A stretch of DNA of 64,000 bases. Origin: Microvirga vignae. Its GTDB lineage: Bacteria > Pseudomonadota > Alphaproteobacteria > Rhizobiales > Beijerinckiaceae. Under the pieces are notes generated by a model. It was not told the DNA's origin, did no database searches, and saw only the letters and a list, made by a program, of their open reading frames with translations. The stretch is taken from positions 1-64,000 of the forward strand of contig NZ_LCYG01000043.1 of the NCBI RefSeq assembly GCF_001017175.1, in the 5' to 3' direction. This document shows positions 19,510 through 44,752 of this stretch, in pieces. Positions within the stretch are counted from its first letter, which is position 1, and the number at the start of each line of letters is the position of its first letter. A program made the position numbers and the translations under genes.

Positions 19510-19583
19510 TGGAGGCCTCGCCCGGAATCGAACCGGGGTGCAAGGATTTGCAGTCCTCTGCGTCACCACTCCGCCACGAGGCC
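19510..19583 (-). tRNA. tRNA-Cys (GCA anticodon)
   Basis: The minus strand reads as a 74-base tRNA with all stems: acceptor GGCCTCG/CGAGGCC, anticodon stem GAGGA/TCCTT (four standard pairs plus A-T), anticodon loop CTGCAAA giving GCA, T arm CCCGG/CCGGG with TTCGATT, discriminator T73 as expected for cysteine, and an encoded CCA end. Confidence 0.95.
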
Positions 19584-26292: not shown

Positions 26293-27665
26293 TAGCGAGA
26301 TGCCTCCGATCCCACGTGCGGCGGCGCGGCGGTTCCGGTTGAGCCGACTCCATGGAGCTGAAACAAGCGATCGAAGAAGCGTTCGATCAGCGCTTGCGCT
26401 CCGGCCCCTACCAGCTCGTTCGCGCCGAAGCGGTAGATCTCGTAACCCGCCAGCCGCAGGTCACGATCAGCGGACACCATCTCTGCGTAGGCCGGCAGCG
26501 ACGGCCTGTCATTGCGACTGAAGTGATGCTGGCCATCGACCTCGATCACAACCCTTGCGCGATTGGGCAGCAGGAGAAGAAAGTCCATGCGTTGCCGCGG
26601 GAAGGAGGCGCGGTGCTTCAACGCCCGCACTACGGCCGGATCGTAGTGCAGATAGACTTGGGGAACGAGCGCCGGCAGAGCAGATTCCAACATCGGCCGA
26701 TAGCGGCGGAAGTAGGTGTCAAAGAGTCCCTGCTCGCCCAACGATGCCAGCGATGCGCGCAAGCGTAGCCCAAGCGACTTGGCGGCATCCCTTTCATCAG
26801 GCTGCTGCTCACTCCACCAGCCGACGAGCTCCGACCACAACAGCCCATGCCTGGATATGGGACGATCGAAGACCAAGCAGTGCTCGGCCCCCGCGAGAAT
26901 GACAATGTCATTGTTGACGGCGTCAGCGAATCCGAGCTCAGGCTTCGGCCCGGTCGAAGCGAAGATGAGGTTCTTTGGCGCGCCCGCGACACCACGGTGG
27001 AGCCGCGACAGACCATAGCCCGGATAGCCGGAGGCTTCGCCTGAGAATTCGAGCCTGTAGCCATCGCGCCGCAGGATCTCGTTAAGTTCGCTGGCAAGCC
27101 GCTGGGCCTCAGCGCCGCGACGTGCCAGCGGGTGCATCACCGCTTCGAGGAGCCGCGCGAAGCGCGAGCGCGAGCAGGTGAACGCGCCCAACTCGCCGAA
27201 CAGCTGCTCGGCGTCCCAATCCGTCGGATTGAGCACCATGTGCTGAACGATCTGTTGCGTGAGCGAGCGGCCGGAAATGAAGCCGACGCCCATGCTGTCG
27301 ATCGGCCAGAGCGGCTTTAACACCTCATCGATCAGGCGTTCGCCGGCTAGGTCGTGACCGAACGCCTTAGCGATATCGCGCCTTGTGATCTCGGTGATCG
27401 GCGGCTCGCCCTCCTCAAGAACCAAGCAGCCGGTCTCCTCCAGGTTGAAGTCGGCGAACCGGGTGCCGATGCGCTGGGCTATTGCACCGAGGGTCTTGCG
27501 GTCGGCGGTCTTGAGGCCGGCGAGCACGCGGTCGCGCTTGGAGACCGCCTCACCAAGGCTGAACCCTGCGTCCTCGGCAGCGCCGGGCAACGTCTCATGA
27601 GTGCAACGGTTCTTCAGCGTCTCGGCAATGCGAAGCGCGAGCGCATTGTTTCCCGGATTCAGCAT
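26292..27665 (-). CDS. AbiJ-NTD3-like protein with C-terminal DUF559-type nuclease domain
   Basis: The 457-residue product starts MLNPGNNALALRIAE, where the first 70 residues (RCTHETLP, LGEAVSKRDRVLAGL) resemble the AbiJ N-terminal domain 3. The centre is unassigned. The last 110 residues form a Vsr/DUF559-like nuclease: RQRMDFLLLLPN, VVIEVDGQHHFSR with catalytic Glu and Asp, YAEMVSADRDLRLAGYEIYRFG. I place the start at 27665 since the longer frame upstream is antisense-like Arg/Pro-rich. It overlaps the helicase gene by seven bases, so the genes are coupled. Combination with helicase and OLD nuclease suggests a defence effector or sensor. Confidence 0.78.
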   Translation of the reverse strand: MLNPGNNALALRIAETLKNRCTHETLPGAAEDAGFSLGEAVSKRDRVLAGLKTADRKTLGAIAQRIGTRFADFNLEETGCLVLEEGEPPITEITRRDIAKAFGHDLAGERLIDEVLKPLWPIDSMGVGFISGRSLTQQIVQHMVLNPTDWDAEQLFGELGAFTCSRSRFARLLEAVMHPLARRGAEAQRLASELNEILRRDGYRLEFSGEASGYPGYGLSRLHRGVAGAPKNLIFASTGPKPELGFADAVNNDIVILAGAEHCLVFDRPISRHGLLWSELVGWWSEQQPDERDAAKSLGLRLRASLASLGEQGLFDTYFRRYRPMLESALPALVPQVYLHYDPAVVRALKHRASFPRQRMDFLLLLPNRARVVIEVDGQHHFSRNDRPSLPAYAEMVSADRDLRLAGYEIYRFGANELVGAGAQALIERFFDRLFQLHGVGSTGTAAPPHVGSEASR

Positions 27666-29542
27666 GCCACCTCCGGCACACCAGCTGCGGTGAGCAGGCC
27701 ATAGAGGTCCGCGACACGGGTGCGTTGGCCGCGCTCGCGGCAAAAGGTGAAAATCGCCCGCTGCTTGGCGCGCGACAGCGCTACGAAGAAGGTGGCGATC
27801 CCTTCTGGATTGCCCGCGCTGTGGCTCCACCACATCGCGTCGTCGAGCCCGACGAAGAGGATGGTGTCGTATTCGAGACCCTTGCTCTTGTGAACGGTCA
27901 TCAGCGGCACCTGATCGACCCCAGTGAAGCAATCGAGGCAGGTCGCCCAATCGGGGCTGCCGTCCGCACATGCAGCGAGGTGCAGTCGAAAGGCTTCGAG
28001 CGCGATGGCGAGCGTATCACCCGTCGCATATTCGGAAAAAGACCGGGCAAGCGCTTGCGCGTCGACGAAGGTGAGCACCACGTCGGCAAGCGCTTCGGCC
28101 GCGGCCGTCGAGGGCGGCGTTGCTGCCATCGTCGCCCGCAAGCCCTGGAGAAACATGCTCAAACCTTCCTCGGCGCGCAGACACGCCAGCTCGTCATCCG
28201 GGTCGGCGTCGCGCAGTCGGAGCACCGCATCCGACGCGATCTGCCAGGCCGCAGGCGCGCGACGGGCGACGCCGAGGCGCAGCAAGGCCTGCGCGATCTC
28301 GGCATAAGCGTCGACCAGGAGATCCTGCAGCGTCGTTCGGCCGAGCGCGCGGCTCTCGTTGCGCAGACGCAGGTTCACTGCAGCCAACGTTGGCGCAAGC
28401 TGCTCCTCGAACCGATCGGCGGTTTGCCGCACGAGAATGGCATAATCGCGCGGCCGCGTTCCGCGAGCCGCCATGTCCTGGGCCAGCCAGCCCGCCAGAT
28501 GCTGCGCCTCTCCAGCCGCGGTCGGACAGGTCCAGACCTGAGCGACGTCGCCGTCCACGCGCCGGCCCGACTGGGCGACGGTCGGGATCGCACCGGCGTC
28601 CAGCGCCTGTGCCACGACATGCTGGATGCGCACCAGATCCGGCGACGATCGAAAATTGACCAATAGCGGCACACGCTCAGCCGCGAACTCCGCTTCGAAG
28701 CGGTCGAACGCGTCCGTGCGCGCGCCTGCCCAGACCATGATGCGCTGTTTGTCGTCGCCCACCGCCGTTACGGTGATGCGCGGATCTCCAAAGGCGGAGA
28801 GCAGAAAATCATACTGGGCGTGGGTCGTGTCCTGGAACTCGTCGACGAACACGAAGGGATAAGTCGCGTGCAAGGCGCGCGCGATCTGAGGTCGCGCGCG
28901 CAGGAGCAGCTCCGCCAGACGATTGAGCATGGTGAAGGTCACAAGCGAGCGGCCGGGCCGGCGCAGCAGCTCGCTCCACCAGCGCTCGATTACGAACTCC
29001 ACCGCAGTGGCCGGCGCCATGGCCTGAAGCGGCAGCCGAAAGGAGCCGACGATCTTGGATTCAAAGTCGGACGGGCCAAGACCGGCGACGACCGCCTGCC
29101 ACGGCTGCGGGGCCGCCAAGCGCGCGCGCGTCAGGAAATCCTCGACCTGCGGCCGCCTCGAGAAGTCGATCCCATAGGGTCGGGTCGGGCGCCAGTCGGC
29201 TGCAAGCGCCGGTAGGAAGCGGTCGACCAGGCTCTTGGTGAACGCGTCGAAGGTCATTGACACGAAGCGATCGGCCTGAGCGCGCTCGCAGCGCTCGCGA
29301 ACCCGGGCGGCGAGGTTTTCAGCGGCGTCAGTCTTGAAGGAGATGGCCAGCACGCGGTGTGGCTCCGGGCATGCGCCGGTCTCCAGCAGATAGGCAGCGC
29401 GCTGGGCCAGAAATTCAGTCTTGCCGGCGCCGGGGCCGGCGACCACGCAGGTGTTCCCCTGACGGCGCAAGACATGCCAGGCGTTCGGTTCGAGATCGGC
29501 GATGCCGCGCGGTCGCCACGCATCGGGTACGACGAGCGGCAT
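27659..29542 (-). CDS. UvrD/Rep-type DNA helicase (GajB-like)
   Basis: This 627-residue SF1A helicase has Walker A AGPGAGKTEFLA near residue 35, the FVFVDEFQDTTHAQYDFLL motif II, GDDKQRIMVWAGA motif III, NFRSSPDLV motif IV, and TVHKSKGLEYDTILF plus VALSRAKQRAIFTF as motifs V and VI. It lies three bases after an OLD-family ATPase-nuclease gene, the arrangement of GajA-GajB in Gabija anti-phage systems. It is larger than the founding GajB. It is intact with all motifs. Confidence 0.9.
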   Translation of the reverse strand: MPLVVPDAWRPRGIADLEPNAWHVLRRQGNTCVVAGPGAGKTEFLAQRAAYLLETGACPEPHRVLAISFKTDAAENLAARVRERCERAQADRFVSMTFDAFTKSLVDRFLPALAADWRPTRPYGIDFSRRPQVEDFLTRARLAAPQPWQAVVAGLGPSDFESKIVGSFRLPLQAMAPATAVEFVIERWWSELLRRPGRSLVTFTMLNRLAELLLRARPQIARALHATYPFVFVDEFQDTTHAQYDFLLSAFGDPRITVTAVGDDKQRIMVWAGARTDAFDRFEAEFAAERVPLLVNFRSSPDLVRIQHVVAQALDAGAIPTVAQSGRRVDGDVAQVWTCPTAAGEAQHLAGWLAQDMAARGTRPRDYAILVRQTADRFEEQLAPTLAAVNLRLRNESRALGRTTLQDLLVDAYAEIAQALLRLGVARRAPAAWQIASDAVLRLRDADPDDELACLRAEEGLSMFLQGLRATMAATPPSTAAAEALADVVLTFVDAQALARSFSEYATGDTLAIALEAFRLHLAACADGSPDWATCLDCFTGVDQVPLMTVHKSKGLEYDTILFVGLDDAMWWSHSAGNPEGIATFFVALSRAKQRAIFTFCRERGQRTRVADLYGLLTAAGVPEVAC

Positions 29543-29545
29543 GGA

Positions 29546-31510
29546 TCAGCAGGCCCCTTCCGCTGGCGTGAAACTGAGCGCGGCGATGACATAGTCCAGA
29601 AGGGCCTTCAGCTCTTCCGGAATGCCGGCTTTCAGGGTTTCTGCATCGAGCCGCGCCAGAACACGCACATGAGTGCTGGGTTTGCCGCGGCCCAGGAAGA
29701 GATATCGATACCAGACGAGCGCAGCGTCATAGCTCGCGTCGTAGAGCGCCGGCAGACCTTCGTTGCCGAGCACCGCCGGCCGCGGGTCCCCGGCGCGTGG
29801 CCCGCGCATGCCGGGCTCCAGCTGCTGATACGCCGCGAAGAAGGCCGTCAGCATGGAATAGTCGAGATCAAGCGGCGCCGAGAAGAAGACGCCGAAACGG
29901 CGAAGCGCAACGATGGACTGTCGCAAGCCGTCGGTGTCGCTCGGACTGCGCGCCGCGAGCTCGGTCAGATGCGCAGCGATGTCGGCGGCAGAGAGCTCGG
30001 TGCCGAACACCTCCGTCGAGGTTCGGCCGACCGCCAACAACTGCTCGCAGGTCGTCTTAATCCGGCCCCAGCCGCCGCCATCACGGCCCCAATCGAGATC
30101 GAGGAGTGTCGCGTAGGGAATAGCGAGATCGCTCAGCAATCGCCAGAGATGGTTTACATGCCGGCCGCCGAGCGGCACCATCGCGACGAACGATCGGTCG
30201 ATCGGGAGGCCGAGCGCCTCCGCTAGGCGCGGCAGCACCACCTCTTCCGACGCGCCCTCGCCGAGAATTACGAACCGCGCGAAGTAGAGCTCGGGGTAAG
30301 TGCGGACCGCTTCGCGCACAAACTTGGCGGCGTCTTCGTCGTTGTCGGGCAGCCGAATGCCATTGACACGTGCGGTGCGATCGGCTGGTTCGAGCCTGAA
30401 GTGCCGAACCTGGTCGGGATCGACGCGTGCGAGGATGCTCGCCGAGTGGCTCGAGATGAAGGCCTGCGCCCGCCCCGTGCCGGCCAGCTCTTCTATCTGC
30501 CGCACGATCCGCGAAAGATAAAAGGGCGCGAGATTGTTCTCGGGTTCTTCGACCGCGATAAGGGTCAGCACCGGCAAGGGCACGCTGCCAGCCTGGAATG
30601 CGGCGCCGGCCGAGCCGTCGGCGATCCGACCCTCGACGTCGAGGGTCGCGGCGGTCATCGCGAGATGGAACAGTGAACGCTGACCGTCGCTCAGGTCCTC
30701 CAGCCCGCGATCGCGACCCTCCTCGTCGGGATGAAACACGACCTCGACCTTGCGGATGAACTCCTGGAAGCGGAGGTCGACCGGCCGGAACACCGGCTTT
30801 GTGTCGGTGCCGGCGCTGTGCACCTGTTGCCAGCGCCGCTCGACCGCTGTGGAGACGAGATCGACGGCCGCCTCGTCGCCGAAGGCGCCGTTGAGGCGCC
30901 CGCCAGCGTCCAGGAACACGTCCTTCATGCCCTGTGACCAAGTGATCGCGCGCCACAGGCGGCCGCGGAGGAACGCGCTCACCTGCGAGGAGCCGTCCCG
31001 GCTCGTGGGCACGTAAATCATCTGGATGCGCGCACGGTCGGTCGGCCGCAGGTCCGAGCGATCCCCGTCCTCAAAATCTCCGAGCGCGCGAATGGCCTGA
31101 TACTTCTGTTCGATCACGCCTTCGAGCGAGCCATCGTCGGTCCAGCGGCCTTCAAGCCTCAGCCGACATTTCAGTCTTCCGTCCTCCTCGCATGCCATCT
31201 GATGGAAGAATTCGGGGACGGCGGCGTGGCCATCCGCGCCTTCGAGCTCGGGAAAGGACAGGATGGCCTCGACCACGAACTCGCGTTCGAGTGGGGTGCC
31301 CGCCTCGGAACTGAGCACATGGAAATCCTGCCGGCGCACCCGCCGATGCTCGGGCGTGACCCCGAACAGCCGAAGCAGCGCCTGCATCACCGCCGTCTTG
31401 CCCGAACCATTGACGCCGACGAACGCGGTCAGACCCCGCGCCATGTCGATGGTCGTAGTCTGCGGCCCGAAGCACCGGAAATTCGTCAAATGAAGCCGTT
31501 CAAGATACAT
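29546..31510 (-). CDS. OLD-family ATP-dependent endonuclease (GajA-like)
   Basis: This 654-residue protein has an ABC-type ATPase domain with Walker A GVNGSGKTAVMQAL at about 32-45, an LSDGQRSLFHLAM signature and VEEPENNLAPF Walker B, followed from about residue 400 by a TOPRIM domain (VILGEGASEEVVLPRLAEAL, VPLGGRHVNHL, LLDLDWGRDGGG). This is the OLD/GajA layout: ATP sensing controls DNA cleavage by the TOPRIM nuclease. It is the first gene of a minus-strand operon with a UvrD helicase and two nuclease-like proteins. Its promoter must lie in the 260 bases shared with the divergent GHKL gene. Confidence 0.9.
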   Translation of the reverse strand: MYLERLHLTNFRCFGPQTTTIDMARGLTAFVGVNGSGKTAVMQALLRLFGVTPEHRRVRRQDFHVLSSEAGTPLEREFVVEAILSFPELEGADGHAAVPEFFHQMACEEDGRLKCRLRLEGRWTDDGSLEGVIEQKYQAIRALGDFEDGDRSDLRPTDRARIQMIYVPTSRDGSSQVSAFLRGRLWRAITWSQGMKDVFLDAGGRLNGAFGDEAAVDLVSTAVERRWQQVHSAGTDTKPVFRPVDLRFQEFIRKVEVVFHPDEEGRDRGLEDLSDGQRSLFHLAMTAATLDVEGRIADGSAGAAFQAGSVPLPVLTLIAVEEPENNLAPFYLSRIVRQIEELAGTGRAQAFISSHSASILARVDPDQVRHFRLEPADRTARVNGIRLPDNDEDAAKFVREAVRTYPELYFARFVILGEGASEEVVLPRLAEALGLPIDRSFVAMVPLGGRHVNHLWRLLSDLAIPYATLLDLDWGRDGGGWGRIKTTCEQLLAVGRTSTEVFGTELSAADIAAHLTELAARSPSDTDGLRQSIVALRRFGVFFSAPLDLDYSMLTAFFAAYQQLEPGMRGPRAGDPRPAVLGNEGLPALYDASYDAALVWYRYLFLGRGKPSTHVRVLARLDAETLKAGIPEELKALLDYVIAALSFTPAEGAC

Positions 31511-31770
31511 GAGACATCCGCAATATTGGAGCGCACCGGCTATCCCGTTCGACTTGGGAACGCTCGGTCAGATGGTGGGGAAGACTGTTAGAGCTGTTTC
31601 CACTGACGTGGAATCATCTCTTATCTTTGGTCTGTCGCATTTTTTGACGGCGAACCGGAGCCTTTTCGCCGCAAAATGCTCTAGCCGATCTGCTATGAAG
31701 GCGGTTCTGGACCGAGCGCGCGGCCGCGGTGACAATTCGCCGGCGCTGACCGGAGCCAGCACGGGGGGCC

Positions 31771-32619
31771 ATGGAGCGAGAGATAGACGAACCAGGGCAG
31801 AAGGTGGTCGGCGATTTCGACGCCGCCGACGAATTGCTCTTTGCGGCAGCGAATGGCGAGCTGCCAGATCTCGGGCCGGTTCGCGTTCGGCGCTCGGGGC
31901 TGATCGGACCGTTGGTCGAGCTGGTCCGGGGACGACAATGCTACCCTGAAGCGTTCGCGTCCGTGACGCTCGAAGCGCCCTTTGTCATGACCATCGAGGC
32001 CGCAATTGATCGCAACGCGGTGACGGGGGCCGAGAAGGACGCGCGAGCTGGCGTCTTTCCGCTTCGCCGGCTTGGCGCTGACGGCGAACGCTCCGATCTG
32101 TGGCAATTGTGGGCGATCCGCGCCGACCAGGCCGCCCTCAAGGCCGGCTTTCCGGCGCGGATCGCGGCCGAGATCGTCGGCGCGCTCGGAGAACTCCAAG
32201 ACAACGTCTTTCGCCATAGCGAGGCGGCGGGCACGGGCCTTGCCGCGTTCGCCGCGCGTCCGGGCTCGTTCGAGGTCGTGGTCAGCGACGGCGGCGTCGG
32301 CGTGCTGGCGAGCCTCCGTTCGCACCCGGACTATGCCGGTCTCGAGGATGCAGGCGTGGCGTTGAAGGTCGCGGTAGCCGACGGCGAATCCCGCTTCGGT
32401 CGCGACTGCGGCTGCGGGTTTGGGATGGGGCAGATGTTCCGGGCGCTCGCAAACCATGACGGGGACCTAAGATTCCGCAGCGATGACCACGCCCTTGAGG
32501 TCCGCGGGCACAGCCCGAGCCTCCAAGGTCGCGTCCAACTGCGCCAGAAAGCAGCCTTGCCCGGACTGACCGTCAGCGTGCTTTGCCGGTCGGCGAGCGT
32601 GCCGGGCCGGACGTTCTAA
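31771..32619 (+). CDS. GHKL-type ATP-binding protein
   Basis: This 282-residue protein has an unassigned N-terminal half and a histidine-kinase-like ATPase domain at about 140-230: N box ELQDNVFRHS and G1 box VSDGGVGV (DxGxG), with a GFGMGQMF G2-like loop. It lacks a phosphoacceptor domain and a membrane anchor. It converges with and overlaps by 153 bases the Cys-rich gene on the other strand. Two genes further on is a STAS-like protein; STAS plus a GHKL ATPase recalls anti-anti-sigma and anti-sigma kinase pairs, so partner switching is possible. This is inference. Confidence 0.75.
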   Translation: MEREIDEPGQKVVGDFDAADELLFAAANGELPDLGPVRVRRSGLIGPLVELVRGRQCYPEAFASVTLEAPFVMTIEAAIDRNAVTGAEKDARAGVFPLRRLGADGERSDLWQLWAIRADQAALKAGFPARIAAEIVGALGELQDNVFRHSEAAGTGLAAFAARPGSFEVVVSDGGVGVLASLRSHPDYAGLEDAGVALKVAVADGESRFGRDCGCGFGMGQMFRALANHDGDLRFRSDDHALEVRGHSPSLQGRVQLRQKAALPGLTVSVLCRSASVPGRTF

Positions 32620-33744
32620 CCGCGCGGGCGGCGCGAAGTCGGAGAGCAGCAGCGCGGTGCGCTTGGTGGCAATGTTGTGCGTGAGCAGATCGTCGATCGG
32701 CTCACCCTTCGGCGTGGAGATCCGCGGCCAGCGCAGCCGACCGGCCTCGGTGAACTCGGCCCGGCGGCGCTTGAGAGTGCGGGCGAAGGCGACCGTCTCG
32801 ATCAGAATGACCTGGGCAAAATGGCGCTTGAGGCGCTGGAGAACCTTGGTGCCGCCGCGCACGATGAGCGTGAGCGGGCGTCCCGCTGCGTCGGCGATGC
32901 GGCAAAGACGATCGACATGCCAGTCAATCCGGTTCGGCGCGCCGGCGCCCGTGCCGAACTCGAAGGCAACGATCTCAACCTCCCCGCGCTCCCGCACGAA
33001 GTGCATCCAGCGCGCATAGTCCTGATCGGTCCGAGCGTTGAGGTGCAACGCAGCCGGAATCCTGGCTGCCATCAACTCGGCCCAGCCGAGCGCAATGCGC
33101 TTCATGCTGTGCAGATTGTCGGGCCGCGGCACGTTCAGGAACAGGCTGAAATTGGGGACGGTGACGAGCGCGACCTCAAGGTCGCGCAGTGTGGACAGAA
33201 TCAGCTCACGATCGGCGAAGGCCCACCAGGCCTCGAGCTTGATATCGCGATCAACGCCCGAGGCGACGACGGTCGCGGTCTCGGAGATGCGGAAGCGCTC
33301 GGCGAGTTCGGCGCGCGTGCGGACGAGCGGCTGGCCGGTCCCCATGTGGAAGAGCTCATACAAGGGGACAGCGATGACCGGTTCGTCCAGGACCGACTTA
33401 CGGCTGTATTTGTGGCCGATGAGTGGGATCACTGACGGCAAGTCGGTCACCGGCAGCGCGGCCACCCGCGGCGTCGACGCCAGATCGAAGCCGTCGATCT
33501 CCAGACAGCGCTCGAAGAACTGGTCGGGCTTGGTGCGGCAGACGGTGTCGCAGGCGGCGGGGTCGGCGCACGAGCAGAGATCGTTGCAATCGAACACGCC
33601 GGCGTCGGTGTGCAGGCCTCCGCAAGTCTCGTAGTCCGGACAGCCGCCGCAGCCGAGCGATGGCGCATAATGCCCGGCGTCGTCTAGGAGCCGGTAAGAC
33701 GGCTTGAAGTCGCGGGTGGGCTCCTGTGGGGCGCGACGGGTCAT
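32467..33744 (-). CDS. Cys-rich protein, DUF4417-like TIM-barrel candidate
   Basis: The 425-residue product has eight cysteines packed between residues 32 and 70 in the order C-x2-C-x5-C-x11-C-x3-C-x-C-x5-C-x3-C, enough for an iron-sulfur or zinc site. A domain follows (about 85-370) with repeating strand-helix units such as VPNFSLFLNVPRPDNLHSM and IPAALHLNARTDQDYARW, similar in feel to DUF4417. Function is unknown. It is coupled to the 116-residue gene (four-base overlap), and its 3' end lies antisense to the GHKL gene. Low-similarity naming: the DUF label is tentative. Confidence 0.65.
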   Translation of the reverse strand: MTRRAPQEPTRDFKPSYRLLDDAGHYAPSLGCGGCPDYETCGGLHTDAGVFDCNDLCSCADPAACDTVCRTKPDQFFERCLEIDGFDLASTPRVAALPVTDLPSVIPLIGHKYSRKSVLDEPVIAVPLYELFHMGTGQPLVRTRAELAERFRISETATVVASGVDRDIKLEAWWAFADRELILSTLRDLEVALVTVPNFSLFLNVPRPDNLHSMKRIALGWAELMAARIPAALHLNARTDQDYARWMHFVRERGEVEIVAFEFGTGAGAPNRIDWHVDRLCRIADAAGRPLTLIVRGGTKVLQRLKRHFAQVILIETVAFARTLKRRRAEFTEAGRLRWPRISTPKGEPIDDLLTHNIATKRTALLLSDFAPPARLERPARHARRPAKHADGQSGQGCFLAQLDATLEARAVPADLKGVVIAAES

Positions 33745-34091
33745 TTCAGCTTGATCTCCATGGTCGCGCCGAGGACTCCGATCCGCTCGATAACGGCTGG
33801 AGCCATGCCCTGTCGTACCTCAAGCGCAGCGCGCACACTTGTCGGTACATTGGCGATGCTGGCCACCTGCCGCAATCCATCGAGCACGACCAATTCCGGT
33901 CCCTTGAACTGGACCAGAACGGTAGCGCCCTGACGCGCCGCCCCCTTAGGGATCAGCTTCGCCGTGAGCGTCCGGCCCTCTTCCGACAGACAGATATCCA
34001 TCAGGGTCGGCGCCTTGGTACGGTCGAGACCCTTGGCCCACCGCTTGGTATAAGGCGTGCCGCTGGCGTTTCGGATGAAGTCGATGCCCAT
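33741..34091 (-). CDS. small conserved-looking cassette protein, unknown
   Basis: This 116-residue protein starts MGIDFIRNASGTPYTKRW and has a beta-rich middle (TLMDICLSEEG, TVLVQFKGPELVVLDGL) and a terminal MEIKLK. No motif or membrane segment. It is nested between the STAS-like gene (one-base overlap) and the Cys-rich gene (four-base overlap), so the three are made together and probably work together. Confidence 0.65.
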   Translation of the reverse strand: MGIDFIRNASGTPYTKRWAKGLDRTKAPTLMDICLSEEGRTLTAKLIPKGAARQGATVLVQFKGPELVVLDGLRQVASIANVPTSVRAALEVRQGMAPAVIERIGVLGATMEIKLK

Positions 34092-34651
34092 CAGGCGACC
34101 TCCAACACGGGGGCAAAGGTTTTGGTTTTTCCCGACCGGCGCTCGATCAGGAGACCGCGGGCGGCGAGATTGGACAGCCGGTTGTTCCAGGCCGTCGGCG
34201 CCAGGCTCTCTTGGCTCTGCGCCGCGAGGCTCGGCGCGCTTGCCGTACCAAGGCGCGTCACCAAGTCGAAGGTCGAGCGGTGCGCCTCGTCGAGTTCACC
34301 TAGGATCTTGGCCTCGCGCGGCTCGCCAGAGGGTGTCAGACGGCAGGCCCAAAGCGCGTCCTTCCGGTGCCGCAGAAAGAATTCGAGCTCTTCGATCACT
34401 GCTGGAGAGGCATTGGCGATGACTGGGTAGAGGGCTGGCAAGGTGGCGCGCGCATGGTCGCGGAAAGCTATCACCCCCTCGCGCAGGAAGGAGGCGGTCG
34501 CGACGGTAACGCCATCAAAATCCAAATAGACGGGCTCCGGCTCGGCGGGCGGATGGGCGGCGGCAACCAGCTTCCCAAGCAGCTGACGGCCGGCTTGCGC
34601 GCCGCTAAGCACCGGCTGGTCACCGGCCATAGAAAGAATGGATAACCTCAC
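34091..34651 (-). CDS. STAS-like (DUF4325) protein
   Basis: The protein of up to 186 residues has a DUF4325 STAS-like core: VYLDFDGVTVATASFLREGV, with the conserved aspartate-phenylalanine strand and Ser-Phe, followed by a helix. The C-terminal half (NNRLSNLAARGLLIERRSG) resembles a winged-helix DNA-binding wing. STAS folds act as regulatory switches bound by GHKL kinases. The frame can start with GTG 34651 or ATG 34630. It heads the minus-strand operon; its promoter lies in the 170-base region shared with the divergent AbiE operon. Confidence 0.75.
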   Translation of the reverse strand: MRLSILSMAGDQPVLSGAQAGRQLLGKLVAAAHPPAEPEPVYLDFDGVTVATASFLREGVIAFRDHARATLPALYPVIANASPAVIEELEFFLRHRKDALWACRLTPSGEPREAKILGELDEAHRSTFDLVTRLGTASAPSLAAQSQESLAPTAWNNRLSNLAARGLLIERRSGKTKTFAPVLEVA

Positions 34652-34825
34652 TTGCTAATCCTCATTGAATTCAGTGAGGATGGAGAGCCCGCCGTTCGTT
34701 GTCAAGGACCGCCGATCCTACGCCCCTGCTCTCTCCACAGCTGAGCCAGCTGACTAGGAACTCTTGGTAAGGTTGCCACTTGCAGACTGTCAGAAGAAGA
34801 TCTACGTTTCTGACGGAGACAAGCC

Positions 34826-35419
34826 ATGAAACGATTGACCAGTCGGATTCTTGAGGAAGCGCGCCGTCTGCCGGAAGGTGCGGTGCTGACTGCCAAGGCG
34901 CTGCTGCACCTGAGCTCGCGTGCAGCCGTTGATCAGGCTTTGTCCCGGCTGGCGCGGCGCGGCCAGCTGCTGCGCGCGGGCCGCGGCCTTTACGTTCTGC
35001 CCGTTGAAAGCAGGTTTGGCGTTCGCGCGCCTTCAGTCGAGAAGGTGGTCGAGGCGGTGGCCGCGCAGCGCGGCGAAACTATCGCTCCGAACGGCGCCGC
35101 GGCGGCGAATGCGCTCGGCCTCTCCACACAGGTGCCGGTCCGCAGGGTCTATTTGACCTCCGGACCAAGCCGAACCCTCCATCTCGGACGCCAGACCGTC
35201 GAGCTTAAGCATGCGCCGCAATGGCAGCTCGTCCTGCCGGGCCGTCCCGCCGGTCAGGCAGTGCGCGCCCTTGCGTGGCTTGGCCCGGCCAAGGTATACG
35301 AGACGATGCGTCGGCTGAAGCGGACACTGCCCGTGACCGAGTGGGAAGCACTCACAGGCGTCGGAGCGCGGTTGCCTACTTGGCTCGCTGAGCCGGTTAG
35401 CCAAGCCACGCATGGCTGA
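34826..35419 (+). CDS. AbiEi-like antitoxin (DUF6088 family)
   Basis: This 197-residue protein has an N-terminal winged helix (about 1-60: SRILEEARRLPEGAVLT, SSRAAVDQALSRLARRGQLLRAGRGLY) and a C-terminal antitoxin domain with NGAAAANALGLSTQVP and a basic tail. AbiEi proteins bind inverted repeats in their own promoter and neutralise the AbiEii nucleotidyltransferase toxin without direct binding (type IV). ATG follows GGAG by seven bases. The stop lies inside the next gene (eight-base overlap), the usual coupling of these pairs. Confidence 0.82.
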   Translation: MKRLTSRILEEARRLPEGAVLTAKALLHLSSRAAVDQALSRLARRGQLLRAGRGLYVLPVESRFGVRAPSVEKVVEAVAAQRGETIAPNGAAAANALGLSTQVPVRRVYLTSGPSRTLHLGRQTVELKHAPQWQLVLPGRPAGQAVRALAWLGPAKVYETMRRLKRTLPVTEWEALTGVGARLPTWLAEPVSQATHG

Positions 35420-36431
35420 AGCGTTCCTGCAGCTATCGATTGAGGATCGGCGCGACGCGCTGGAGGTCGCGGCATCACGCTCTGGCCGCCCCGCGCACCT
35501 TCTCGAAAAAGATATCTGGGTTGTGTGGTCGCTGGACGCGCTGTTCGCCTCTCCCCTCGGTGCGAAACTCGTCTTCAAGGGCGGCACGTCGCTGTCAAAG
35601 GCCTATCGAGTAATTCGCCGCTTCTCTGAAGACGTGGATCTCACCTACGACATCCGCGCGATCGTCCCCGACCTCGTCGGCGACGCCGAGGATGCACTCC
35701 CCTCGACGCGGAGCGCGGAGAAACGCTGGACTAGCGAGATCAAGAAGCGATTGCCGCAATGGGTTGCCGAACAGGCCTTGCCGGTGATCGTTGCACGCCT
35801 CGCCGACACGCATGCGCCAGCCGAAGCCATCGTCGATGGCGAGAAAATCTTCGTTACCTACGACGCTACCGCAGCGGGTACGGGCTATGTCCGTCCCGCC
35901 GTGATGCTGGAATTCGGCGCCCGCTCGACCGGCGAGCCGTGCGCGCCATTCGATATCGAATGCGACGCGGCCGAACTGGTCGAGGGCTTGATTTTCCCGC
36001 AAGCGGCAGCGCGCGTCATGCGCGCAGAGCGGACCTTTTGGGAGAAGGCGACTGCGGCGCACGTCTATTGCGCGCAAGGGCGGTTGCGCGGGGAGCGTTT
36101 CGCGCGCCACTGGCACGATCTCGCGCGGCTCGACGAGGCCGAGCTTGCGAAAGCAGCGATCGCCGATCGTGGCGTTGCAGACGCGGTTGCTGCGCATAAG
36201 ACGATGTTCTTTTCTGAGCGCGACGCCTCAGGCGCGCCGATCGACTACAAAGCCGCGGTGAGCGGCCACCTGCTGCTGGTTCCCGAAGGCGGCGCCCGGG
36301 ACGCGCTTGCCGAGGATTATGTGCATATGATCGACGACGGATTGCTGCTCGATGCGGGCGAGCCATTTGACGCGCTGATGGAGCGATGCGCTGACATCGC
36401 CGCTCGGGCCAATGCGGCGGCGGGTGCATGA
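35412..36431 (+). CDS. AbiEii/AbiGii-type nucleotidyltransferase toxin
   Basis: This 339-residue protein has the AbiEii nucleotidyltransferase signature: LVFKGGTSLSKAYRVI followed by RRFSEDVDLTYD, with the two catalytic aspartates in DVD, then the LMLEFGARS-like strand and a C-terminal helical region with FWEKATAAHVY. AbiEii toxins add nucleotides (GTP or other NTPs) to cellular targets such as tRNA and halt growth, so phage-infected cells stop. It forms a pair with the gene before it and overlaps the following nuclease-like gene by four bases. Confidence 0.88.
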   Translation: MAEAFLQLSIEDRRDALEVAASRSGRPAHLLEKDIWVVWSLDALFASPLGAKLVFKGGTSLSKAYRVIRRFSEDVDLTYDIRAIVPDLVGDAEDALPSTRSAEKRWTSEIKKRLPQWVAEQALPVIVARLADTHAPAEAIVDGEKIFVTYDATAAGTGYVRPAVMLEFGARSTGEPCAPFDIECDAAELVEGLIFPQAAARVMRAERTFWEKATAAHVYCAQGRLRGERFARHWHDLARLDEAELAKAAIADRGVADAVAAHKTMFFSERDASGAPIDYKAAVSGHLLLVPEGGARDALAEDYVHMIDDGLLLDAGEPFDALMERCADIAARANAAAGA

Positions 36432-37219
36432 TAAACCTCCACGAGCGCCTGTCGGAATTCTCTTACGGCTATGGCGTCACCCGCGAGGTCGAGCGGCGGC
36501 TGGCCGCGCGCGGGCTTCGCGCGACGCCGTTCTTGCCGAGTCTGCTCCACGAAGCGAGCCTTGGTTTCGATGTCGCCTTCTCTGGTCCTGGCCAAGTCGT
36601 GATGCTCCAATTCAAGCTTGGCCAAGAGTTGTCACGCTTCCGCAGGCTCGATCCGAGCGAAACCATCCCAGCGCTCTCCAAACCCTTCTGGCGCTATTAT
36701 GTCGATACGACGGAGCACCAGTTCCTGCGTCTCGAAGAGTTCGAAGCCCATGGCGCAGACGTCTTCTACGTCGCGCCGCGCTTTTCCCATTGGTCGGCCT
36801 ACGACGCAGCATTCCATGGCAATCAGGTTTTGCAGCGTTCCCTACTGTTGCGCCCGTCGGAGATCCAACGCGGTTCCGGCGGAACGCCCGGCGAGCACCG
36901 CATCGTGTATGATCGTATCAGGCGCTACGTCTGCTCCGAGCCCCGCGCGGTCGAAGAGGTCACGCCGGACGAACTGGTCGAAAAACTCGACGTCAGGGCG
37001 AGGTCGCAGGAACCGCTGATCTCAAGACTGGAGCGTCTTGTGTCGAGCGAGAGGGCTCGGGGTACGCCTCAGCTCGCGCGCAGTCGACAGCGAGACATTC
37101 GCTCCCGCGCCCGGACCCCAGCCGATGGTTTGGCGGCGATCGTCGGCCTGGAAGCCTGGCTTCAGGGCACGCAGGTTCTGTTCATCACGCCGTTCGAGAC
37201 GGCCGTGCTTTCCGAATAG
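36428..37219 (+). CDS. nuclease-like protein coupled to AbiE
   Basis: This 263-residue protein is not a standard AbiE component. Residues 25-62 read PFLPSLLHEASLGFDVAFSG then VVMLQFKLGQEL, which fits a PD-(D/E)XK core (Glu in the helix, Asp in FDVAF, Q-F-K strand). The middle has FWRYYVDTTEHQFLRLEEFE, the rest is less clear. It overlaps the toxin by four bases and is followed after 11 bases by an unknown gene, so it is made together with the toxin. The nuclease call is inference from a short motif. Confidence 0.6.
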   Translation: MINLHERLSEFSYGYGVTREVERRLAARGLRATPFLPSLLHEASLGFDVAFSGPGQVVMLQFKLGQELSRFRRLDPSETIPALSKPFWRYYVDTTEHQFLRLEEFEAHGADVFYVAPRFSHWSAYDAAFHGNQVLQRSLLLRPSEIQRGSGGTPGEHRIVYDRIRRYVCSEPRAVEEVTPDELVEKLDVRARSQEPLISRLERLVSSERARGTPQLARSRQRDIRSRARTPADGLAAIVGLEAWLQGTQVLFITPFETAVLSE

Positions 37220-39965: not shown

Positions 39966-40119
39966 GCACGATCACGCTCGGAAGGCTCCGTTCTCGAGTC
40001 CCCTCAGCCTGCCGGATCCATTGGCCGACCGCCATGGCTGTGCATTCCGCAACAAGCAGATTAAGCACGGCCTCGATCTTGCTCGTGTCAGTTGCATAGG
40101 CCGTGGATTGCATCTGGGA

Positions 40120-41745
40120 TCAGGACAAAACTACTTCTGCATTCATCTCAGAGCGTCGCCTTTCTGCATCGGAAACCAGCCATTTCGCTAGGCAGAGTGC
40201 TTCATCCGCATCATCGACTCGTGCATCTAACATGATGTCTTCAGCTACAATCTGGAAAGCCTCATCCTGATTGCAGCCTCCAAAGCGAATTGCTTGCCGG
40301 TAGCGTTCTCTCGCTTCAACGGCCATCGAACAGTGCTTAAAATAGGCGTCCCACGCCGAGCCCACGGCTGCGTTATTCAAGGCGCGGTTCGCTGCCTCAT
40401 CCCAGTCCACCTCATGTTCGGCGTGAGCCTCAACGGCCAGAAGGCAATCACGGAGGTCATCTATGGTCAGGAATTGATCAGGAATATCTCGCCTGCGCTG
40501 CTTAAGCTGAGTCGCTACGTCCTGACAGCCAGAACATATTAGCACCTTCTTGCTATCGTGCATCACGAAAGCGTTTCGGAACCCTGGCAGCAGTCGGCGT
40601 CGCGCCCAAAGTGCAGTCTCATCCGTTTCCGGAACAGGCTCAAAATGTTCACGAATCCCTCCTGACCATCTGCCAGCCTTGGATTTGCGCACCACCTGCC
40701 GCTTTGAACGTTGGCAGATCGGACATTGCCAATCTTCGGGTATAGCCTCCCATCTGCGCGTTGATACGGGATCTCGGTAACTTAAGTACTCTGCGTCAGT
40801 CGGAGCCTGTACCGTGCGTGGAGCATTAGTGATTTTAGGAGCGATAACGGACGAGTCTTTTTGAACAGATCGGGCTAAGAACTCGTTGAGCAGTCGAAAC
40901 AACTCTCTCTCGCGCTCGTCGCGCTTCGTTTCTGACAAGAATGCTTGATAGAGCTGGGTTTGAGAATCGAATTGCCTCTGAGCCACCTGAAACCATGGTG
41001 TCCCATGCTCATGTCTTAGCCCCCCTGAGTGTATGAGTTTTAGTACCTCGTCAATCAACTTCAGGCGCATTTCGAAGCCTGAATTAGCTTTCTCCCATCT
41101 ATCCTCCACTTTCTTTGGATTGATAGAATGAGACGCGTTTGGCTTCGGCGTAATAAATTCCGCAATTTCAGATGGAGAGAAGGTGAAATATGTATGGGCC
41201 TTCCCCTTCAAAAGAATCTTCGCTTTGCCGTCCGCCGCATTACATTCTGAGCAGACCAATTCGGGCGTGAAATTGGAAACCAGATTTTCCAGCTGATCCG
41301 TCAGATAGGATCCTCCCCTTGGAATTTCTGCCAACCATCTGTCGCCAAAAAGATCACGGGCTCGCTTGCGAACATAATCACGTAGATGATCATGATGCTC
41401 TTCCAGTTTGGCGAGCAGAATCCCACGTGGCGAGAGGCGGAAAATTTCATTCTTGGATCTTCTGCAAACCGGGCAACTCCATCCTTGATCGACTAGAGCC
41501 CAGTTTTGATTAAGGTCCAAACCCTTCGCGGCATGGTGTTGTAGTGCTGCTTTCGTTTGCTCACTCCACCGCCCATCACGGCGCCGGAAGAACAACTCCA
41601 TCTCTGAATCTGATAGCTTTGATGGACGCCAGAAAGCGAGTTCGACAAACCAAGCTTGTTCGGGAGCCCCACCGAATGCGACACCATTCTGGCTTGGCTG
41701 TTCAGGATCAAAGGACTTCACAAGCTGCCTCAATGGTTTTTTCAT
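40120..41745 (-). CDS. double zinc-finger/HNH-like protein behind SIR2-HerA
   Basis: This 541-residue protein has two related cysteine modules. The first has CPVC (about residue 90), then EEHHDHLRDYVR and VCSECNAADGKAK, the layout of an HNH nuclease in a zinc frame; the second has CPICQRSK (about 335), IREHFEPVP and ICSGCQDVATQ. The second looks degenerate in its central histidines. The linking region is a long charged helix. Codon use is more AT-rich than in the neighbouring regions, as in the next two genes. It lies 119 bases after the HerA gene on the same strand, so it may be an accessory nuclease of that system. Confidence 0.65.
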   Translation of the reverse strand: MKKPLRQLVKSFDPEQPSQNGVAFGGAPEQAWFVELAFWRPSKLSDSEMELFFRRRDGRWSEQTKAALQHHAAKGLDLNQNWALVDQGWSCPVCRRSKNEIFRLSPRGILLAKLEEHHDHLRDYVRKRARDLFGDRWLAEIPRGGSYLTDQLENLVSNFTPELVCSECNAADGKAKILLKGKAHTYFTFSPSEIAEFITPKPNASHSINPKKVEDRWEKANSGFEMRLKLIDEVLKLIHSGGLRHEHGTPWFQVAQRQFDSQTQLYQAFLSETKRDERERELFRLLNEFLARSVQKDSSVIAPKITNAPRTVQAPTDAEYLSYRDPVSTRRWEAIPEDWQCPICQRSKRQVVRKSKAGRWSGGIREHFEPVPETDETALWARRRLLPGFRNAFVMHDSKKVLICSGCQDVATQLKQRRRDIPDQFLTIDDLRDCLLAVEAHAEHEVDWDEAANRALNNAAVGSAWDAYFKHCSMAVEARERYRQAIRFGGCNQDEAFQIVAEDIMLDARVDDADEALCLAKWLVSDAERRRSEMNAEVVLS

Positions 41746-41864
41746 TACGGTGTGTCAATTGATCGACTGCGCCGATACCTGCATTTAGGTGGGATCGGGC
41801 TCAGCTAGGGCTCAGTGCGATACACACCTCGCCCTGGAGGTCCGAATCATTGCCACGATGGAAG

Positions 41865-43664
41865 CTAACTCCGTGACTGTCGGCGCATGCTCTCAACAGC
41901 TGCCGCTAGATCAACTGGTCCCTTAGGAGTTCCCCATCTTTCCCAGAACGGGATTGTCGCACTTCGAGGAACACAACGAGGTCGAGTAATTTTGATCCTG
42001 GTCGGTAGCAATGTTGCGTCCCCAACCACAACTGCCTCGCCTACATCCAAAGTCGGTAATATCTCCATTAAGCTCTCTAGGCTCTCGGGCAGTAGCTGCT
42101 TCACTACACTTTGGTCGGTTTTGTTCGCCAAGCGAAGGCTAATGATGTTACTGCATTGGCTCAAGATTGTTGTACTGACATCAGAAGGTCGCTGGCTGAC
42201 CACCATCAGCCCTACTCCGTACTTCCGACCCTCCTTTGCAATTCGCTCGAACGTTTCGAGAGCACGCCGCTCTAGAGGACCTATAGAGCTGCCCTCCCGT
42301 GGCAAGTATAGGTGTGCTTCGTCGCATATCATCACTATTGGGTGACGCCCATCGCCCTCGTTGCCGGGATTGCTCCAAAACTGAATCTGATAAATCAACC
42401 TAGCGACTAGGCCGATAACAACCGGCAGAACGTCGGATGGCACCTCTGAGAAGTCAATAATTTTGATACCTGGGTTTCGCCCGTCTTCTTTTCCCGAGCC
42501 TAAGAGACTCGCCGCAAGTGCATGAAGCGAGTCGTAGGTGCTGTAGCTGCTTGGGGACTGGTACATAAAACCATACCTGCGGTCGTTCATCTTCGTTCTG
42601 AGGCGAATTAGAAACCTTGAGAGCTTTCCATTGAGTGGGCCCTTCTCCATTTTGGGTTGGCCCTTCCGCGCTCCGCTAGCGTAAGTCTCACCCGTATCGA
42701 ACGCCTCATCATTTTTGGCATCCAACGCAGAGATCAAATCCTCAAGCCGATAGGGTATTGGCGTATCAACGGTAAAGCCCTCGAGAAGATGTTCAACACC
42801 GAGATCTTTTATAGCTTTGCGCTTTGTCTCTATAACTGAATCCATCAACGCGAGTGCTTGATTTGGCGCATTCTCACCCGATCTATCAACGAAAACAGAT
42901 TGCATTTCATCATACGTCAGCAGCCAAAATGGCAAGAAAATAGCATCGGGCTTCTCTGTGCCTAGGTCCCCGATGCCAGCAATCCTGAAATGCGACGCGA
43001 ATGTCATACTTGAGTATTCGCCGTGCAAATCGAGAACAATGATATTTGCATGCGGAAGCTCTGCCGCCTGCTCTAGAACAGAGGCGACGGTATACGACTT
43101 GCCAGAGCCAGTACTACCAAGAAGAGCAGCATGCCGCTGGAAGAGTTTATCAGCATCTATGTAGGCGGCCGCTTTCCCGTCCAGTGTATAGGTTCCAATC
43201 ATGAGAGGCATGGTCGTTGCGCTTTTTGATGAGGCACTCAGAATGCCCATGAAGCTCTCGAGAGCTTTCTCTTCTATTGGGAAAACAGCACGACTGATCT
43301 CAGGCAGGGAAAATACAGCTCTCGTAAATGTATCGCGACGTTCGCCGTCACGTTCACGGTAGGTGCCGACGAGATTTACACATACCCCGTTTTCCTCCGT
43401 CGGAATGGTGTTAAAATCAGCTCCCTCATCGCTCGCTTCCTCGCCGAGACTCGGTGATTCGACAGGGTGCCGCCACACACGCTCAATTATTCCAATTAGC
43501 CATTCGTCCCCCATGGACCGAATTGCAACCAGGCGACCGACACGTGCCTTTTGAAGTTTTACGCCATCAGTGACGCGGACCATTATGCGGGAGGTTTCGA
43601 TGCTCCGGACTTCTCCAAGCGACTGCTCTTCGGAAAAGCTGAAAATAGCCATGCTAGATCTCAC
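41865..43664 (-). CDS. HerA-like ATPase (DUF87) of a SIR2-HerA system
   Basis: This 599-residue FtsK/HerA ATPase has an N-terminal HAS-barrel (about 10-130), Walker A LLGSTGSGKSYTVASVL near residue 185, Walker B IVMICDEAHLYLP and the C-terminal SQRPSDVSTTILSQCSN segment. HerA forms hexamers that bind DNA; together with SIR2 NADases it makes an anti-phage complex (SIR2-HerA, also called Nezha). The GTG start overlaps the SIR2 stop by four bases. An ATG 12 bases later is possible. Confidence 0.9.
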   Translation of the reverse strand: MRSSMAIFSFSEEQSLGEVRSIETSRIMVRVTDGVKLQKARVGRLVAIRSMGDEWLIGIIERVWRHPVESPSLGEEASDEGADFNTIPTEENGVCVNLVGTYRERDGERRDTFTRAVFSLPEISRAVFPIEEKALESFMGILSASSKSATTMPLMIGTYTLDGKAAAYIDADKLFQRHAALLGSTGSGKSYTVASVLEQAAELPHANIIVLDLHGEYSSMTFASHFRIAGIGDLGTEKPDAIFLPFWLLTYDEMQSVFVDRSGENAPNQALALMDSVIETKRKAIKDLGVEHLLEGFTVDTPIPYRLEDLISALDAKNDEAFDTGETYASGARKGQPKMEKGPLNGKLSRFLIRLRTKMNDRRYGFMYQSPSSYSTYDSLHALAASLLGSGKEDGRNPGIKIIDFSEVPSDVLPVVIGLVARLIYQIQFWSNPGNEGDGRHPIVMICDEAHLYLPREGSSIGPLERRALETFERIAKEGRKYGVGLMVVSQRPSDVSTTILSQCSNIISLRLANKTDQSVVKQLLPESLESLMEILPTLDVGEAVVVGDATLLPTRIKITRPRCVPRSATIPFWERWGTPKGPVDLAAAVESMRRQSRS

Positions 43665-44740
43665 TCAAGGAATTGGCGAAGGAACGGGTCAAGCTGCCAG
43701 ATGGGGGCTGAGAATCGACATACGTTGCCGTCGTAGTAACAGACCGCCCCATCACCATCTCTGCAGAATGCGAGGACATGAGGGTGCTTGTTGACAATAG
43801 CTTGAGCTGCGTCCGTCAAGTCTCGGGTAATGATAACCGCTGGCATTCCAGCATCTAAGCGACCTCGGATTATCCCCTGCAGGTGCTCGTCGTTAAATCC
43901 GAAGCCGATGCAAACAAGGGCTTGGGTCTGCGAAAGGGTGACGTTCATCTCTCCTCGGACCCTGTCGAAAAGCGTGTTGATCAGTGCGTCCTCGTATTTA
44001 GATGGACCAGGAACGACTATGGCACGCGCCGCCGTGGATTGATCGTTCACCACTTCGATAGGACCAGCCTCGGTTGTGAGCCATGTGATTGAGCCATGCG
44101 GTTTTATAAGCCGCACTGTCGGCTTGGGACGGTGTTCGTAAGTTGAGCCACGCTTCCGATCCGTAGCAATAGAGCGCGTATAATGTGTCTGGAACAACGT
44201 GTGTTCTCGTACACGTCGGCGTCGGAACCCCTCGAAGCCGGTATCTAGTGGCAGACTTGCTAAATCGCAAAATAGCTCCAGCAAGGTGTCATAGTTGGTT
44301 GTGATAACTGAAATGCAGGGAGCGTTTTGAGGCGCCCCCTCATACAGCCGTCTTAATAGTCGGGCTGGAGCATGTGTCTCGGGGTTATCAGAGCTTAGAA
44401 TTCTAGCTTCTGCCTCAGTAGTTCGTTGTATAATGAGACTTGCCGTTTCCTCTCTCAGAAGTCGGATTATCTCGTCTCGACCAGCAGCGCCAATTGGAAT
44501 CGCATTCAACCCTTTTTCCAGATTTGCTCTGATGTCGGACAGAGCGCTGGTCCACAAATCCTTCGGCTCGTGCGTCACTAGTTTTGACCCTAAAGTCGTG
44601 ATTAAGTGATCGCCCAAAGCTCCCATGTGCGGGAGATCGTACGCGCACGAGAAGCCAGATCCTATGAGGAGCGTTGGAGTCAGGCGGAAGATGTCTTGCA
44701 GTCGTCTTGAGACAACGTCCGAACCGGCCATAATGTCCAT
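43661..44740 (-). CDS. SIR2-family NAD-hydrolysing defence protein
   Basis: This protein of about 359 residues has the SIR2 pattern of defence NADases: the NAD-binding LLIGSGFSCAYDLP loop near residue 25, ISVITTNYDTLLE with the conserved Asn and Asp, the catalytic His in LIKPHGSITWL, and VCIGFGFNDEHLQGI at the end. It lacks the zinc-binding Cys set of protein deacetylases, as expected. SIR2 with HerA depletes NAD on infection. I use the ATG at 44740; the frame is open to a GTG at 44752. It is the first gene of the operon. Confidence 0.9.
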   Translation of the reverse strand: MDIMAGSDVVSRRLQDIFRLTPTLLIGSGFSCAYDLPHMGALGDHLITTLGSKLVTHEPKDLWTSALSDIRANLEKGLNAIPIGAAGRDEIIRLLREETASLIIQRTTEAEARILSSDNPETHAPARLLRRLYEGAPQNAPCISVITTNYDTLLELFCDLASLPLDTGFEGFRRRRVREHTLFQTHYTRSIATDRKRGSTYEHRPKPTVRLIKPHGSITWLTTEAGPIEVVNDQSTAARAIVVPGPSKYEDALINTLFDRVRGEMNVTLSQTQALVCIGFGFNDEHLQGIIRGRLDAGMPAVIITRDLTDAAQAIVNKHPHVLAFCRDGDGAVCYYDGNVCRFSAPIWQLDPFLRQFLE

Positions 44741-44752
44741 AGGGGGCCCCAC

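Follow-up and report, generated by a model that had tools for sequence, protein, structure and literature searches.

The closest described relative of the locus analysed here is the CapK/CapS pair (Chambers et al., EMBO J 2026, published June 2026; PMC13373217), in which a helix-turn-helix (HTH)-STAS-GHKL protein, CapK, is followed directly by the repressor CapS, with TTAA palindromes at the capS promoter and a second site at the downstream operon. In the same account CapK is activated by single-stranded DNA, CapS is phosphorylated at Ser54 (E. roggenkampii CapS S54), phosphorylation breaks the repressor dimer, and the partner systems named are CBASS, Bub, Bil, Thoeris and DUF4747 systems (PMC13373217). 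Here we examine a 64,000-nucleotide (nt) stretch of Microvirga vignae (contig NZ_LCYG01000043.1, positions 1 to 64,000; hereafter the window) and, within it, a four-gene cassette encoding a STAS-winged-helix protein, a 116-amino-acid protein, a DUF4417-like protein with eight clustered cysteines and a GHKL protein. We consider it likely that this cassette works as a CapK/CapS-type phospho-switch that regulates itself, carried beside defence operons and enlarged by two further genes.

The cassette is compactly built: the STAS gene overlaps the 116-residue gene by 1 nt, the latter overlaps the DUF4417-like gene by 4 nt, and the GHKL gene converges on the DUF4417-like gene with an overlap of 153 nt (32467-32619). 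A first-pass annotation of the window had drawn the genes at these positions, with overlaps of one, four and 153 bases, between Gabija-like and AbiE operons, and both the layout and the flanks are confirmed here, PADLOC placing the cassette between a complete Gabija system (GajA and GajB) and an AbiEi-AbiEii pair (Table 1). The four cassette proteins themselves match no PADLOC model at E <= 0.1 and none reaches a Pfam or NCBIfam cut-off; a named PADLOC or NCBIfam system comprising the four genes was thus ruled out, the sole NCBIfam hit being PaaC at 17.1 of 133 bits. A GHKL frame arising as a chance overlap or shadow open reading frame was likewise rejected, since its relatives occur in both strand arrangements: 14 other loci have it convergent and 8 have it on the strand of the other three genes.

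To place the window among its relatives, 23 distinct loci were assembled (the window, seven from a genome collection, six plasmids, eight from whole genomes and one from a set of viral sequences). The query was the DUF4417-like protein (for L037 the STAS protein as well), so the presence of that gene in them is by construction; the STAS, 116-residue and GHKL genes are all present in 23 of 23, which bears out the suggestion that the four families would be found together. In one of these loci, L005, the STAS and GHKL frames are broken, and it is kept among the 23 but left out of the 22-row conservation counts and tree. Removed before counting were a Streptomyces plasmid locus (L015; DUF4417-like protein at 26 per cent, without the other three genes), two further Aminobacter plasmids that equal the retained one in coverage and identity, L029 and L008 (the same places as L003 and the window) and L038 (the same contig as L037). 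Searches with the separate proteins converge on the same places. Across 72,556 plasmids the DUF4417-like query matches nine records and the STAS and GHKL queries eight each, the eight being the identical records; among 385 genomes of the class the DUF4417-like and STAS queries each match the same two, and among 397 genomes of the order separate STAS and DUF4417 profile searches match the same nine, with the genes side by side. The window's own genome counts among both the two and the nine, and two of the nine (the window's own and one matching L003) supplied sequences to the query alignments. Since these genome searches score few candidates per genome (four or eight, depending on the query), misses in them are soft.

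The hosts range from Hyphomicrobiales to a planctomycete, with protein identities down to 18-29 per cent. The GHKL gene is convergent in 15 of the 23 loci, downstream on the same strand in seven and directly upstream of the STAS gene in one (L014); the convergent overlap measures 147-159 nt in 14 loci and 14 nt in L036. Together, these data describe a conserved four-gene unit that is rare and, so far as seen, complete. In L009 and L010 (both 9291-10190) public records annotate a hypothetical protein on the opposite strand and so leave the GHKL frame unannotated. The Streptomyces locus is differently composed, a ParB gene immediately preceding its DUF4417-like gene (L015:7971-9017) and amidoligase genes following it, and in 50,697 phage records no relative of the DUF4417-like protein was found with either the window protein or the Streptomyces protein as query.

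The identity of the two switch proteins is carried by profile comparison. A search of the STAS alignment against Protein Data Bank (PDB) profiles returned CapS (9z71, E 0.003), the match that pointed to this family, and hhalign against CapS (two plasmid sequences) gave Prob 97.2 and E 2.8e-11 over 161 columns spanning both the STAS domain and the C-terminal winged HTH. Ser54 of the window protein aligns with CapS Ser54 and is conserved in 22 of 22 relatives, as is the winged-helix segment TAWNNRL..L; the protein is accordingly described as a STAS-winged-helix relative of the repressor CapS, with Ser54 as its proposed phospho-acceptor. For the GHKL protein, alignment with CapK is confined to 112 columns of the GHKL domain (Prob 93.9, E 1.6e-7); the RsbW kinase is its best PDB profile match (E 0.08), and a SpoIIAB-like N-box (E141, N145, H149) is retained in 22 of 22. 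Both labels are taken from the comparisons with CapS and CapK because the Pfam scores are sub-threshold: HATPase_c_2 reaches 19.3 of 27.4 bits on the GHKL protein, and DUF4325, the name first given to the STAS gene, reaches 18.3 of 23 bits, so that this label survives just as a sub-threshold match and STAS plus winged helix is the better description. Run against the genome to which the window belongs, the DUF4325 profile returned no match and so misses even the window STAS gene. Taken as a pair, the two proteins are very likely a CapK/CapS-like kinase and repressor, and the partner-switching idea put forward in the first-pass annotation is upheld in the form of a phospho-switch with a published precedent (PMC13373217).

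A candidate operator accompanies the pair. Upstream of the STAS gene lie half-sites YYTCAC and GTGARR. In 22 of the 23 loci 8 or 9 nt separate them; in L014, where the best match is weak and misplaced, the gap is 7 nt. A palindrome with at most one mismatch occurs within 70 nt of the STAS start in 18 of 23 loci (nine with none, nine with one), against 3 of 401 control upstream regions, the controls being mechanically called open reading frames of at least 200 residues from the same loci, shadow frames included. A -35 box with at least five of six matches is present in 19 of 23 loci, and in 17 the spacer measures 17 nt; the palindrome's left arm overlaps the -10. DNA similarity of the window to its close relatives begins with this promoter, at -70 to L003 and at -64 or -65 to L001, L002 and L004-L007. 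By its arrangement, promoter and palindrome appear to be the anatomy of a self-repressing operon. A stricter promoter and terminator scan of window positions 31400-34900 listed no promoter, the TTGACA box among those unlisted, and no terminator; as gajA starts 957 nt past the DUF4417-like stop on the same strand, and no terminator-like site was seen, read-through into gajA is possible.

Within about 1 kb on its 3' side, the cassette has a named defence system as neighbour in 16 of the 23 loci. Eight kinds of system are represented, and in 15 of the 16 loci the system is oriented like the STAS gene (Table 1; GajB runs off the contig in L001 and L003, and in L032 the first gene alone was scanned). 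The 22-row cassette tree places Kiwa on three separate branches and Gabija on two, so that an exchange of partners must have taken place. The GHKL stop of L033 is followed at the very next base by the start of kwaA, and switch and defence genes there look like one operon. Closer relatives of the window show what remains of Gabija after the cassette: a cut GajA in L002 (8132-8860), only the first gajA bases in L004 (about 8110-8130) and, in L007 (8098-11238), a gene for a 1046-residue ATPase with a partial Ppl match that starts with gajA-like bases, Gabija having been replaced. We regard these three loci as partner exchange caught among close relatives. The window's sandwich recurs on a Rhizobium etli plasmid (L009:5147-6896), where AbiEi/AbiEii are divergent to the cassette and GajA/GajB lie on the opposite side, with other AbiE and GajA subtypes. 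In L034 a codirectional protein of 667 residues follows the cassette (4650-6653); it has no Pfam or PADLOC match and is a candidate defence gene.

The two additional proteins are less readily named. For the 116-residue protein, the AlphaFold2 model (mean pLDDT 64.3, residues 1-39 below 50) predicts a disordered start followed by a HIRAN-like barrel. VIA-align scores it at Z 9.0 to 3k2y, 7.4 to the HIRAN domain of HLTF and 6.9 to Rad5, with the next unrelated match at 5.1, where Z below 8 may reflect a common arrangement. Foldseek gave no match at E <= 0.001, a search of the alignment against PDB profiles gave none that was convincing, and Pfam HIRAN is absent from the family matches of nine of nine members scanned; the HIRAN profile itself matched nothing in 30 genomes of the window's family and gave eight matches in 142 genomes of the class, used just to build a comparison alignment. 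A HIRAN-like fold of residues 39-116 is thus a lead from modelling, its likeness to the HIRAN domain of HLTF and Rad5 residing in predicted fold and its difference in the lack of Pfam or hhalign support.

RefSeq annotates relatives of the 425-residue protein as DUF4417, and the Streptomyces protein matches PF14386 below the cut-off (22 of 28.9 bits), while PF14386 was not matched at E <= 1 in any of nine members scanned. Its eight cysteines (32, 35, 41, 53, 57, 59, 65 and 69), read earlier as a cluster from the window alone, are real and conserved in 22 of 22 aligned relatives; they may serve as the metal or redox sensor that the first-pass annotation suggested. The model (mean pLDDT 61.4) finds archaeosine tRNA-guanine transglycosylase (TGT) as its best Foldseek match (E 2.9e-5), and VIA-align returns Z 14.7-13.5, all from the TGT family among the 50 matches listed; alignment against PDB profiles yielded no convincing match. 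Polar residues D167, N198, H234, E262 and others, conserved in 22 of 22, fall near strand ends of the predicted barrel, placed as in an active site if the model holds. A TGT-like TIM barrel is again a lead from the model. DpdA of 7-deazaguanine DNA modification is a member of the TGT superfamily; TGT has catalytic aspartates and a C-terminal zinc site, and alignment placed neither on the DUF4417-like protein. The resemblance of the DUF4417-like protein to this superfamily, DpdA included, is that of a predicted TIM barrel with TGT as its best structural match; it differs in having its cysteine cluster at the N-terminus and in lacking profile-level similarity.

In light of these observations, we propose that a dimer of the STAS-winged-helix protein would bind the palindrome over its own -10 and keep nearly silent an operon of the STAS, HIRAN-like and DUF4417-like genes, joined in some loci by the GHKL and defence genes. 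Upon damage or infection a nucleic-acid signal would activate the GHKL kinase, which would phosphorylate Ser54 of the STAS domain and cause the repressor dimer to fall apart; transcription would then rise and run on into the codirectional defence genes. The HIRAN-like and TGT-like eight-cysteine proteins would be co-expressed and may serve the kinase by reading or processing the DNA signal, whether a 3' end or an altered base, and where the GHKL gene is convergent, antisense transcription from the induced operon could reset the switch. In sum, the cassette probably raises expression in response to trouble with the cell's DNA. That the two extra proteins sense nucleic acid is a tentative element of this scheme that may well prove wrong; as they would themselves be under the operator, they may be effectors as well as sensors. 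A more specific version is doubtful and, in our estimate, rather unlikely: a new class of four-component controller of immune operons, in which a HIRAN-like reader of DNA ends and an eight-cysteine protein of TGT fold (reading or exchanging bases, possibly with an iron-sulphur cluster) feed a CapK-like kinase that releases the STAS-winged-helix repressor. A single mobile cassette would then let a particular DNA lesion or modified base, instead of single-stranded DNA alone, induce Gabija, Kiwa, DISARM, Hachiman, SIR2-HerA, SIR2-pAgo and Mokosh.

We read the cassette as a plug-in regulator more than as a separate defence system, and control of the adjacent defence system by it seems to us probable. 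Several observations weigh against the proposed scheme. Seven of the 23 loci lack a clearly named 3' system, the Hachiman system of L035 is convergent to the cassette, and defence islands alone could account for defence neighbours. In none of 15 loci do the 260 nt preceding the partner system hold a second copy of the operator with at most one mismatch, the best having two or three. The operator pattern was read from the very sites later counted, and eight of the 23 loci belong to one close clade, for which reason the strongest evidence for the operator is its recurrence in divergent loci (for example L011, L013, L030, L033, L036 and L037). Residues 1-136 of the GHKL protein gave no hhalign alignment with CapK. 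The fold models of the two additional proteins were built from shallow, nine-sequence alignments, and hhalign supports neither, at Prob 2.1 for the 116-residue protein against the HIRAN profile and Prob 0.2, with no profile support, for the DUF4417-like protein against TGT.

An alternative is that the cassette acts by itself in defence, or as a toxin-like system, and has a phospho-switch built in; on this view the TGT-like eight-cysteine protein, aided by the HIRAN-like one, would act on invading DNA or tRNA, the STAS and GHKL proteins would control just these two, and shared defence islands would explain the neighbours. The STAS, HIRAN-like and DUF4417-like genes do overlap under the sole operator found, which would make the extra proteins the outputs of the switch. 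The bare starts of the partner systems agree with this, as do L011 (a NACHT gene upstream of the cassette and no named 3' system) and L014, L034 and L036 (nothing named on the 3' side), the active-site-like placing of polar residues in the predicted barrel and the fusions of DUF4417 to ParB folds reported for phages (PMC12704722). We nevertheless hold it unlikely, given that 15 of the 16 named neighbours are codirectional, close and on one side, that one kind of system is met again on separate branches of the cassette tree, and that no TGT catalytic residue could be assigned in the DUF4417-like protein, where profile alignment failed. More improbable is a VapKSC-like toxin-antitoxin arrangement in which the STAS protein would restrain the DUF4417-like or HIRAN-like protein by direct binding until phosphorylation frees it: VapS, a STAS protein, restrains VapC (PMC13373217), and overlapping genes suggest equal dosage, but VapS has no winged helix, whereas that of the cassette protein is conserved in 22 of 22 and a candidate operator precedes its gene, and the four proteins contain no PIN domain at E <= 1. 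Chance co-residence, with four unrelated small operons gathered by a defence island, would fit the variable gene order and GHKL orientation (convergent in 15, codirectional downstream in seven, upstream in one); it is strongly disfavoured by the joint presence of all four genes in every locus across so wide a range of hosts and identities and by reciprocal searches that land on the same places. A regulator paired with various defence systems fits the neighbourhoods better than stand-alone defence does, and the first-pass label of a candidate undescribed system is in part wrong, the core pair belonging to a known kind of regulator.

Further features of the window lie outside the cassette. A gene for a 263-residue protein (36428-37219, plus strand) overlaps the abiEii stop by 4 nt and is a possible third gene of the AbiE operon; Pfam, PADLOC, NCBIfam and a phmmer search of the PDB all gave no match for it. 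A tRNA-Cys gene (19510-19583, minus strand), about 8 kb from gajB, is a possible island edge, and on the opposite side positions 40001-46000 form another, with a G+C content of 0.52-0.55 against 0.64-0.67 around the cassette.

Table 1. The cassette, its promoter and its neighbours in the window, and the loci in which each partner system lies 3' of the cassette
Feature	Position	Strand	Basis or detail
STAS-winged-helix protein gene, 186 amino acids, proposed CapS-like repressor	34091..34651	-	profile comparison with CapS
116-amino-acid protein gene, HIRAN-like predicted fold at residues 39-116	33741..34091	-	AlphaFold2 and structure alignment
DUF4417-like gene, 425 amino acids, N-terminal eight-cysteine cluster and predicted TGT-like TIM barrel	32467..33744	-	RefSeq name of relatives, Foldseek, VIA-align
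GHKL protein gene, 282 amino acids, proposed CapK-like kinase	31771..32619	+	profile comparison with CapK
Palindromic operator candidate CCTCATTGAATTCAGTGAGG (+ strand)	34660..34679	.	overlaps -10 of STAS promoter
STAS promoter -35 box TTGACA	34700..34705	-	17-nt spacer to CATCCT at 34677-34682
GajA of Gabija, partner defence operon	29546..31510	-	PADLOC GajA E 1.4e-239
GajB of Gabija	27659..29542	-	PADLOC GajB E 1e-216
AbiEi and AbiEii, divergent neighbour of the cassette	34826..36431	+	PADLOC AbiEi 6.9e-66, AbiEii 3.1e-98
Gabija 3' of cassette			window, L001, L003, L005 (broken GajA frame), L006, L009 (other GajA group)
Kiwa 3' of cassette			L010, L033, L037
SIR2-HerA 3' of cassette			L028
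DISARM DrmD/DrmMI 3' of cassette			L030
SIR2-pAgo 3' of cassette			L031, L032
Mokosh 3' of cassette			L012
Hma-like 3' of cassette			L013
Hachiman 3' of cassette			L035

If the proposed regulation is correct, the partner systems would be inducible in their natural hosts, and cloning them without the cassette would leave them silent or constitutive, a point of consequence for the way in which they are assayed. No paper on such a cassette was found under DUF4417, HIRAN or transglycosylase in the open-access literature searched, and the described regulators resemble it to differing degrees. SpoIIAA/SpoIIAB and RsbV/RsbW share with it the pairing of a GHKL serine kinase with a STAS protein as its substrate, which in the cassette is a proposed role; their target is a sigma factor (PMC13373217), whereas the cassette STAS protein has its own DNA-binding domain and the cassette no sigma factor. 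CapW/BrxR and CapH+CapP are, as is proposed for the cassette, small regulators beside interchangeable immune operons that answer to DNA damage, but they are a WYL repressor and an HTH-peptidase pair, neither with STAS or GHKL domains (PMC13373217). VapKSC combines a GHKL kinase with a STAS protein in an anti-phage setting (PMC13373217); the cassette differs in lacking a VapC/PIN gene and in the winged helix of its STAS protein.

CapK/CapS comes closest: both have a STAS-winged-helix repressor (proposed in the cassette) with the phospho-acceptor serine at the same position, a GHKL kinase domain, an autoregulated promoter with a palindrome (putative in the cassette) and a place beside diverse immune operons (PMC13373217). 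To that extent the core pair is a known kind of immune-operon regulator, and what goes beyond it are the 116-residue and DUF4417-like genes, present in every locus examined. Further differences are that the N-terminus of the cassette GHKL protein is unaligned with the HTH-STAS part of CapK, that in 22 of 23 loci the STAS, 116-residue and DUF4417-like genes come in this order and the GHKL gene converges on them or follows them, L014 alone having GHKL directly before STAS, and that the candidate operator reads YYTCAC-N8/9-GTGARR in place of TTAA half-sites, for which no separate scan was made; nor was an operator seen at the downstream operon, unlike for CapS (PMC13373217). The partners, too, are others, namely Gabija, Kiwa, DISARM, SIR2-HerA, SIR2-pAgo, Mokosh, Hachiman and Hma-like systems, and GHKL/STAS transcriptional control of the damage-responsive type would with them extend to systems outside the list in the CapK/CapS paper (PMC13373217). 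The circuit would thereby gain two conserved protein families, one of them (DUF4417-like) of no known function, together with a precise candidate operator. As the gene order and operator of CapK/CapS are not those found here, the cassette is best regarded as a related four-gene variant rather than as CapK/CapS proper.

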